From positions 62,001 to 126,000 of the forward strand of contig JADIIU010000029.1 in NCBI GenBank assembly GCA_027603945.1: DNA of 64,000 bases, in the 5' to 3' direction. Shown in pieces: positions 58,949-61,900 of the stretch. This DNA comes from Terramyces sp. JEL0728. Its lineage: Eukaryota; Chytridiomycota; Chytridiomycetes; Rhizophydiales; Terramycetaceae. Positions within the stretch are counted from its first letter, which is position 1. Each line of letters opens with the position of its first letter. The notes under the pieces were generated by a model. It was given only the letters and a program-made list of their open reading frames with translations, was not told the origin of the DNA and did not search any database. A program made the position numbers and the translations under genes.

Positions 58949-61900
58949 ATGACGGTAAACTTTGATTCGATTGTCCCCACTCCAGATGGATTACAAGTAT
59001 TGAATCAGGAGATATTTGTATGGCCAATTACCAACTGGACTACTTTTAAAAAACAAGAACGGGTAAATTCGCCAGCTTTTACATGTGGTAACAAGCAATG
59101 GTAAGCGGATATTAATCATAGGTAACTAATATTGACAATAGGTAAAACAAATTAACAATAGGTATTTGATTGCTAATTTAGGCGAGTATTAATGTTTCCG
59201 AATGGGAATAGGACCCCTGACACCATCTCAGTATTTCTAGAGTGTATGGATGCTTCTGCGAAACCCGATCATGAACGATGGCACTGCTGCGTTACCTTTG
59301 CAATCGCTGCAGCTAATTTTGAAAACGAACGAGCTCATGCAAAAGTTAATGGTAAACCAAGCTAATTTTAGCCGCAAATCACCGTTATACTCCAAAGTAT
59401 TTGATGCTAATCTCAGGGATACCGACTGGGGATTCAGTCAGCTTATTACTCATCCTCAATTGACAAAGACTATTGAAGGATTTGATATTCCTATCATGGA
59501 GAGCGATCAGTTCAAAGTAGTTGTCTATTTGAAGGAAATCAAAGATACCACTGGCGTACTTTGGCATAATTTCAACGAGTAATTTGATTTAATAGTAGCT
59601 GGGATTCTAAATTGGAAACTGGGTTTGTTGGCTTGAAAAATCAGGTTGAAGAATTTTAATCTAGGGTGCAACTTGTTACTTGAATTCTCTCTTGCAGTCT
59701 TTGTACTACACCAACTACTTTCGTAAAGCAACTTTTGCGATTCCAACCAATGAAGCTGATCCAACAAACAATGTGCCATATGCGCTGCAACGACTGTTTT
59801 ACCATTTGCAGTTTTCAAATTCTGCAGTTGGAACTAACGAACTAACAAAATCCTTTGGATGGGATTCAATGGATGCCTTCCACCAACATGATGTGCAGGA
59901 ATTGAACAGAGTATTGCAAGATAATTTGGAAAACAAGATGAAGGGCACTCCAGCTGAAGGTGCTATTCGTAAACTGTTTACTGGGAAGATGAAAAGTTAC
60001 ATCCAATGTATCGACGTTGACTTTGAATCATCCCGCATTGAAGAATATTATGACATTCAATTGAATGTAAAGGGGAACAAAAATCTAGAAGAATCATTTG
60101 AAGATTACTGTCAGGTTGAAACTCTTGATGGAGATAACAAGTACTTTGCTGAAGGATTTGGCTTACAACCTGCCAAGAAAGGTGTTATTTTCAAATCGTT
60201 CCCGCCAGTTTTGCACTTGCAACTCAAGAGATTCGACTATGATATGGAGCGAGACCAATTTGTTAAAATTAACGACCGCCATGAATTTGGAATGGCTTTG
60301 GATCTGGAAAAATTCTTGGATGATGACGCAGATAAATCAATCAAACAAAGATATAGGTTGCAAGGGTAAATACTTATTGATGTAGCGTGTTGGTTCACAG
60401 CGGTGATTTGAATGCTGGGCACTACTTTGCTTTGATTCGTCCAAAGAAGGATGGGCAATGGTATCGTTATGACGATGATAAAGTTATCCCGGTTACTGAA
60501 AAGGAAGTACTAAACGACAACTTTGGGGGAGAAGGACAGCCAGTTCAAAATGCAAGGGCAAACAAGATTGGAAACAGATACTATACCAACGCTTACATGT
60601 TGGTATACATACGTGAAACCGATGAAGACGAGATTCTTGCTGAAGTTACTGAAAATGATATTCCAAGTCACTTGAAGGAAAGAGTCAAACGAGATATTGA
60701 AGAATTGGAAAGAAGACAGAGGGAAATTCAAGAGCAGCACTTGTTTGCCAACGTTCATGTCATTAGTGACTATGAGTTACAAAATCATTCTGGGTTTGAT
60801 ATTGGATTTAGAAGCGATCACGGAGTTACTCTTGGAAATCATTTCAAATTCAGAAAAGAAGCAACTATAATGGACTTGCAAAACCATATTGCAGAAAACT
60901 ACAATATTGCTCCTGCGCAAGTGAGATTGTGGAGTGTCATTACGAGACAAAACAAGACTTGCAGAGCAGAAATCCCTCTTTCTTCTCCGGAATGGTGGCC
61001 AAAATGTATTATATGTCCTAATTTAGATGTTGGAGATTATTACCAAAATGTGTTGAAAACTGGGGAAATCAAAATCTATGCTCAATTAGCTCATTCTCCA
61101 ATTGCTACAGATCAATATTTCTATCCTATTGGAGAAAAATCCACAAACTCACAAATAATGATCTTTGTCAAACACTACGATCCCCTTACCGCTAAAATGG
61201 AAGTAGTTGGAACAGAGATGGTCAGAGCGTCCTCCAAAATCCAAGATTTATGTCCAAAATTGCTCAAATTAAAGGGCATCCCAGCTAATCAAAAATTGAT
61301 TCTTTATGAAGAAGTCAAACCAGGCATGATTGACGAACTTGATCTTTCAAGCTCGTTCGTTAATGCGGAGCTGGTGGATGGTGATATTATTTGTTACCAA
61401 AGAGAGTTATCTGGCGAAGAGTATTTTGTAGATTAATTTAGTTTGGACAAGATGGAAGACCCAGTTACTTTTGGCACAATTCCAAATTACTTTGAATTCT
61501 TGACAAACCAAATATCAATTACTTTTATTTCGCGTGAACGGGCAGCAGAAGGAGATGTTGAGTTTGCATTAAAACTATCGAAAAAAACACCATTTGACGA
61601 TGTTGCGAAGCAAGTCGGAGCTCATCTCAAGCATGACTCTACAATGATCAAATTCTATCAGAGTTCACACAACAGAGCTCCTCTTCAGCCTGTTCGCAGA
61701 CAGTTAGGCACTACGCTTAGCGAAATGATAGGACAATACTACACAAATGTTGAGCCTGTACTGTACTACGATCTATTGGATATGTCACTCGCTGAATTTG
61801 ACTCCAAGCGGTACATCAAGGTTATATTCTTGGATAGCACATTCAAGGAACATCCAATTCAATTACTTGTATCAAGAAGTGGGAACATGGATGAAGTCAT

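Follow-up and report, generated by a model that had tools for sequence, protein, structure and literature searches.

An 81-nt gap in the coding sequence of a USP7 gene of the chytrid Terramyces sp. JEL0728 (Rhizophydiales, Terramycetaceae) is tiled without remainder by four introns of 21, 20, 20 and 20 nt, placed head to tail with zero-length exons between them. The gap occupies positions 59101-59181 of the forward strand of the window, as the whole 64 000-nucleotide stretch of DNA that was analysed is called here. We consider it probable (at about 0.7) that it consists of four complete ultrashort U2-like introns of a class found genome-wide, likely to be excised sequentially. The genome searched comprised 15.0 Mb in 231 contigs. 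The features of the window are listed in Table 1.

Table 1. Features of the USP7 gene and of the second stack in the window (positions are those of the window)
Feature	Position	Strand	Basis or score
Whole USP7 gene (ubiquitin hydrolase with MATH domain)	58949..62436	+	Gene model
USP7 exon upstream of array	58949..59100	+	Gene model; phase 2 at end; aligns to USP7 relatives
USP7 intron unit 1, 21 nt, GTAAGC...TTAAT-CA-TAG	59101..59121	+	Signal score 11.5
USP7 intron unit 2, 20 nt, GTAACT...TTGAC-AA-TAG	59122..59141	+	Signal score 11.1
USP7 intron unit 3, 20 nt, GTAAAA...TTAAC-AA-TAG	59142..59161	+	Signal score 10.8
USP7 intron unit 4, 20 nt, GTATTT...CTAAT-T-TAG	59162..59181	+	Signal score 11.8
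USP7 exon downstream of array	59182..59351	+	Gene model
Second stack, units 39600-39618 (19 nt) then 39580-39599 (20 nt)	39580..39618	-	Low-scoring gene model (score 21); pattern match C29:101580-101618

The junctions between the USP7 units read TAG/GTA in all three cases, both on direct reading and when cut by script, and the units are, in order, GTAAGCGGATATTAATCATAG, GTAACTAATATTGACAATAG, GTAAAACAAATTAACAATAG and GTATTTGATTGCTAATTTAG. Each has the features of a spliceosomal (U2-like) intron, namely GT...AG ends, a branch-site motif and a position in an in-frame coding gap, and wherever one intron succeeds another AG is followed directly by GT with no exon letters between. All four signal scores lie above the median for ordinary introns of the genome (10.0). 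A Viterbi parse with a length-agnostic model, in which all lengths from 14 to 160 nt were equally likely, still picked the four stacked introns. Relative to the best parse lacking these units, the stack gained 25.4 nats with the empirical length prior described below and only 3.6 nats under the flat length prior.

In the gene model, removal of exactly the 81 nt brings the flanking exons together in frame. The joined protein was aligned with the solved structure of USP7 (2f1z) over residues 35-501 with E = 4.4e-127, and the alignment spans the array site. A Pfam search with the first 502 residues of the model returned MATH and UCH domains, and the best PDB match was USP7. The initial annotation had placed a head-to-tail stack of four complete introns with zero-length exons in USP7; the exact tiling with full signals in every unit bears out the stack, and the two domains together with the structural match bear out the host gene. 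The nine other introns of the gene, all of 20 or 21 nt, start at positions 59352, 59397, 59579, 59645, 60366, 61006, 61421, 62046 and 62313. A search of this genome for a second copy of the locus, using a 511-base query containing the array as one piece rather than single 20-nt units, matched only the locus itself. Introners, near-identical introns dispersed through a genome, were considered as well; on this query the array as a whole has no further copy.

The 15 possible products of incomplete removal were also translated. In 14 of them the retained letters open with a stop codon (TGG-TAA), and in the product retaining unit 4 alone the stop lies 28 nt past the exon end. Since all 15 hit a stop, removal of the array must be complete.

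Intron lengths were surveyed with a self-trained gene finder run on the window and on C1:1-200000; early passes with a fixed intron penalty gave few and noisy introns and were used as a seed only. Under a flat length prior (14-160 nt) the introns peaked at 19 nt (78 introns), 20 nt (161), 21 nt (92) and 22 nt (30), while longer ones formed a thin spread over all lengths, as expected of false joins. With an empirical length prior, 437 of the 463 introns in 132 gene models were 17-24 nt long, 419 of these being 19-22 nt. Of the 26 introns longer than 24 nt, 21 improved by under 5 nats on a model that allows no long introns; the remaining five had a support of between 5 and 10.6 nats (the maximum). 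Forbidding one short intron cost a median of 9.0 nats (60 sampled), so that the five are supported about like a short intron and a handful of longer introns is possible. About nine-tenths of the introns are of 19-22 nt and longer ones are rare at best. The consensus comprises the donor GTAATT, a YTRAY motif that contains the branch A and usually stands 1-2 nt ahead of the acceptor triplet, and the acceptor TAG, CAG or AAG. Exons show a weak preference for A-G just upstream of the donors of the 427 unstacked introns, with 46% A at position -2 and 46% G at position -1.

Recurrence of stacks was assessed over the whole genome with five patterns, each joining two intron-sized pieces at [TC]AG/GTA; a pattern GTAAGT...GTATGT, tried first, was uninformative. 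The five returned 71, 40, 93, 48 and 50 rows, compared with 75, 41, 54, 97 and 58 for the reversed-pattern control, and only the 93-row pattern exceeded its control (54). As the total of 302 is not above the control total of 325, the raw counts are uninformative, and only the branch-site test, in which a good branch site was required in both units, separates the two. This test was passed by 22 of 71 rows, 28 of 88 (the 40- and 48-row patterns together), 14 of 93 and one of 50, giving 65 of 302 in all. In a control with a scrambled second donor none of 52 rows passed; the second unit taken alone passed in one of these 52, compared with 34 of the 71 rows of the corresponding real pattern. The 65 junctions represent 49 sites on 38 contigs, three of the sites being near-copies of another; four junctions are within the window (three of them the USP7 junctions) and 61 are outside it. 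The presence of similar arrays elsewhere in the genome had been set as a test beforehand, and it is answered positively by these 65 junctions against none in the scrambled control.

Zero spacing between units is special. With a pattern allowing a spacer of 0-12 nt, for which 99 of the 104 rows were scored, 20 of the 28 rows with spacer 0 passed, counting USP7 and segmental copies, compared with 14 of 71 at spacers of 1-12 nt, where seven passing rows had a spacer of 3 nt and five of these seven fell in one formin gene. A contiguous scan free of any pattern gave six internal exons of length 0 among 352, three in USP7 and the others at three sites, and just one of 1-13 nt. Many pattern matches occur twice per contig, several to tens of kilobases apart and with few differences (C26, C27, C18, C29, C35, C44, C85, C100 and others); these paired matches are either large tandem duplications or haplotypes joined in the assembly.

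Gene models were examined at further loci. All 20 of the loci L029-L048, which were chosen as best-looking, gave a stack within a coding gene model, as did six of the eight loci L050-L057; the other two, L050 and L053, have introns with exons of 1 or 3 nt between them. The 40 parsed arrays contain two units (17 arrays), three (ten), four (seven), five (three), six (two) or seven (one); three of the 40 include a member of 44-67 nt that may tile further. Host genes were named by Pfam or PDB match. In the proteasome alpha-6 gene (PSMA6; C30, L037) the array measures 21, 20, 20 and 20 nt, the last three units are identical and the conserved protein reads straight through the stack site. The deposited PSMA6 of Terramyces sp. 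JEL0728 (P0001), which matches the C30 gene at 96%, lacks exactly the 81-nt array. The ARL2 gene holds a 20 + 20 nt stack, obtained from the contiguous scan, and likewise reads straight through in comparison with solved ARL2. Other hosts encode a histone deacetylase, topoisomerase I, ANAPC8, a karyopherin-like HEAT protein, a CDP-alcohol phosphatidyltransferase (five-unit array) and a HOOK-domain protein (seven-unit array).

Some observations were made alongside. Compared with L037, the deposited PSMA6 lacks ten residues (HITVFSPEGR) beside the first 19-nt intron, which suggests that annotation may go astray at ultrashort introns. Locus L029 (C128:21000-23500) is a hot spot with several arrays in two predicted genes on opposite strands, among them five identical 20-nt units in succession. 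On the minus strand of L053 (C35:111800-112900), near the gene start, introns are predicted with exons of 1 and 3 nt between them; we take this gene to be one resembling the splicing factor ISY1.

The formin gene (C106:24000-26900, L050) carries a variant of the arrangement. Between its FH3 and FH2 domains the protein has a series of GGPPPPPPPP-like repeats, and in this poly-proline region 34 introns of 20-23 nt are predicted within 1,027 nt (L050 849-1875), with 22 predicted exons of 3 nt between introns, 21 of which are ACC. The predicted 3-nt exons keep the reading frame whether retained or skipped. The introns beside them resemble one another more than stacked units paired at random do (mean 0.675, p = 1e-4), and a two-intron block is itself repeated (L050 1018 and 1163).

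A related USP7 protein was available from Boothiomyces, a genus which we assume to be in the same family as Terramyces. The closest USP7 protein was that of Boothiomyces sp. JEL0866 (P0121; 90%), a record that shares 95% identity with residues 1-502 of the Terramyces protein. At the array site it reads TLTINYR where Terramyces has NKQW. If the gene predictor used a GT 13 nt upstream of the array together with the acceptor of the last-but-one unit, the extra residues would be the translation of a 22-nt piece, GT-ACN-YTN-ACN-ATH-AAY-TAY-AG, which has the form of a consensus intron whose branch site, TTAAY, precedes the acceptor triplet by two letters. On the intron model the back-translations of TLTINY had a mean score of 7.9, and 0.07% of 3,000 random hexapeptides scored as well. 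The Boothiomyces gene thus probably has a stack junction before the last unit at the same site, and its record appears to translate the last array unit; this reading is made from the protein and assumes exon letters like those of Terramyces.

Given a spliceosome confined to introns of about 20 nt, the USP7 units should be taken out singly. In the proposed path each round of splicing would be the work of a single spliceosome and would free one 20-nt-sized unit, with no fixed order. All units carry a donor (GTA), a branch site (YTRAY, usually 1-2 nt ahead of the acceptor triplet) and an acceptor (NAG) of their own. As no exon letters lie between the units, the mRNA would be the same whatever the order of excision, and the TAG that ends one unit provides a favourable exon-like context (AG/GTA) for the next donor. 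The initial annotation had supposed stepwise splicing in which each excision regenerates a splice site; such regeneration is unnecessary, because the donor, branch site and acceptor are already intact in every unit.

The same mRNA would result if all 81 nt left in one step as a single intron, from the donor at 59101 to the acceptor at 59181, the inner sites being unused relics of duplications or insertions. Scored as a single intron the span reaches 11.3, and a fission-yeast gene with a single intron spanning four 24-bp duplicates is described in PMC4974935. The deposited PSMA6 is also consistent with one 81-nt intron, as the product is identical either way. We nevertheless consider removal in one step unlikely. 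Few introns longer than 24 nt were predicted and most of these are weakly supported, and in nucleomorphs, according to PMC5014332, splicing is already poorer for introns of 21-27 nt than for those of 18-20 nt. If the inner sites were unused, old arrays should decay inside, yet dissimilar units keep full signals, in a search that favours intact units. In the fold of lowest energy the first four letters are paired with others near positions 70-73, which would bring the ends closer, but its energy is no better than that of shuffled sequences (z 0.14; 109 of 200 fold as well).

Two further readings were weighed, and both are given very little credence. In a nested stwintron one unit would lie inside the splice signal of another and the order of excision would be fixed; fungal stwintrons likewise need consecutive reactions, as PMC9024468 and PMC12403724 state, but this reading of the USP7 array is contradicted by its uninterrupted signals, since no unit interrupts the signal of another and the donor, branch site and acceptor are contiguous in all four. 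The array might otherwise be a single intron with accidental AG/GT sites, or an assembly error: AGGT is a short motif, the USP7 example was singled out by the initial annotation and the raw pattern counts are, in total, not above the reversed control. The branch-site test with its empty scrambled control stands against this, as do the divergent units found on many contigs and, indirectly, the Boothiomyces protein. Chance tiling was rejected on simulation, none of 400,000 random 81-nt introns (intron-like dinucleotides, fixed good ends) tiling into four full units.

How the arrays arose was examined by comparing neighbouring units. Tandem duplication occurs in this genome: five identical units stand in a row at C128:22745-22844, where the gene model read one as an exon, and identical tandem units are present at C30 (three), C37 (two) and C79 (two); C48 has three near-identical units. 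In the parsed arrays 15 of 81 neighbour pairs have an identity of at least 80%, compared with 0.7% of random pairs, the loci having been partly picked for identity. An unchosen set of 48 pairs was taken from the TAG patterns, with one exact repeat dropped and near-identical segmental copies kept; here four of the 48 reach at least 80%, compared with 1.9% of random pairs, and the distribution as a whole did not differ from that of random introns (48 pairs, p = 0.26). On the sequences compared, many of the stacks must either be of some age or have arisen through insertion beside an existing intron.

The initial annotation had described units 2 and 3 of USP7 as similar and the array as a product of tandem intron multiplication. 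The two units do agree at 15 of 20 positions (units 2 and 4 at ten, units 3 and 4 at eight), but 15 of 20 is reached by 4.6% or 7.6% of random stacked-unit pairs on two estimates, so that the similarity is no evidence of duplication. Tandem multiplication accordingly stands for C128, C30, C37 and C79, and it extends neither to the unchosen neighbours as a group nor to USP7, where duplication as a demonstrated origin was rejected, the units being no more alike than random introns.

An array could gain units when an intron is duplicated in tandem or when a further one inserts at an intron boundary; in either case the protein stays unchanged, and the array would persist only while all its units can be spliced. 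For USP7, repeated insertion of unrelated introns at the AG/G boundary of an existing intron is a serious possibility, to which we give somewhat less than an even chance. It agrees with the unchosen neighbours, on the whole no more alike than random introns, and with the weak A-G preference before donors, which is what an intron end supplies. On the other hand, clear duplicates exist both in the partly picked arrays and in the unchosen set, and with about ten free positions in each unit saturation should come quickly, so that old duplicates would come to look unrelated.

Several known systems resemble these arrays in part. Recursive splicing makes use of zero-length exons (ratchet points; PMC5126111); it shares with the arrays AG/GT sites without exon letters between and a piecewise intron removal that would give the same mRNA. 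Its known cases are in long animal introns (PMC5126111), whereas the USP7 array measures 81 nt and the longest parsed array 158 nt, and in Terramyces, where long introns are few or absent, as many as seven complete introns of about 20 nt stand one after another. The stwintrons of Ascomycota (PMC9024468, PMC12403724, PMC7138796, PMC8469720) are, like these arrays, complex introns of fungi with consecutive excision reactions (PMC9024468, PMC12403724). A stwintron has one intron nested within a splice signal of the other, while the Terramyces units are intact and side by side, two to seven in number.

In the Rogers model introns are gained by tandem duplication, and AG/GT boundaries arise with the protein unchanged (PMC4974935), as in the arrays. 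There a duplicated exonic piece yields one intron, whereas in Terramyces whole introns appear multiplied, in USP7 without a recognisable duplicate. The dual-specific sites of UBC are likewise arrayed AGGT motifs, each of which can serve both as donor and as acceptor, but the UBC units are coding repeats that are variably spliced out (PMC10809524) and the Terramyces units are non-coding and must all be removed. Ultrashort introns are known from Paramecium (about 25 nt) and from nucleomorphs (18-20 nt), which share with Terramyces a spliceosome held to one very short intron length (PMC5014332); no report of stacked introns in either was found in the open-licence PMC literature. None of the texts compared here describes complete introns arrayed side by side. 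Neither such arrays nor the introns of Terramyces were found reported in titles and abstract openings of that literature, which agrees with the initial remark that no array of this kind had been described.

We lean towards a common reading of these loci across the genome as 'poly-introns'. The spliceosome would be limited to introns of about 20 nt, introns would multiply head to tail and each unit would cost one splicing reaction; a 3-nt step would give the 3-nt exons of the formin type. Several rounds of splicing at one spot are probably needed for one clean message. To judge from the USP7 record of Boothiomyces, the arrays may lead gene annotation astray, and they offer a natural test of the shortest intron that a spliceosome accepts and of its upper length limit, as well as of repeated splicing at one exon-less site and of the reading of 3-nt exons. 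The origin of new introns is a long-standing open question, and here multiplication in place can be followed from identical copies to fully dissimilar stacks. If RNA proved splicing unit by unit, the arrays could deserve a class of their own. If the poly-intron reading is true, the number of introns in a gene can rise and fall with no trace in the mRNA.
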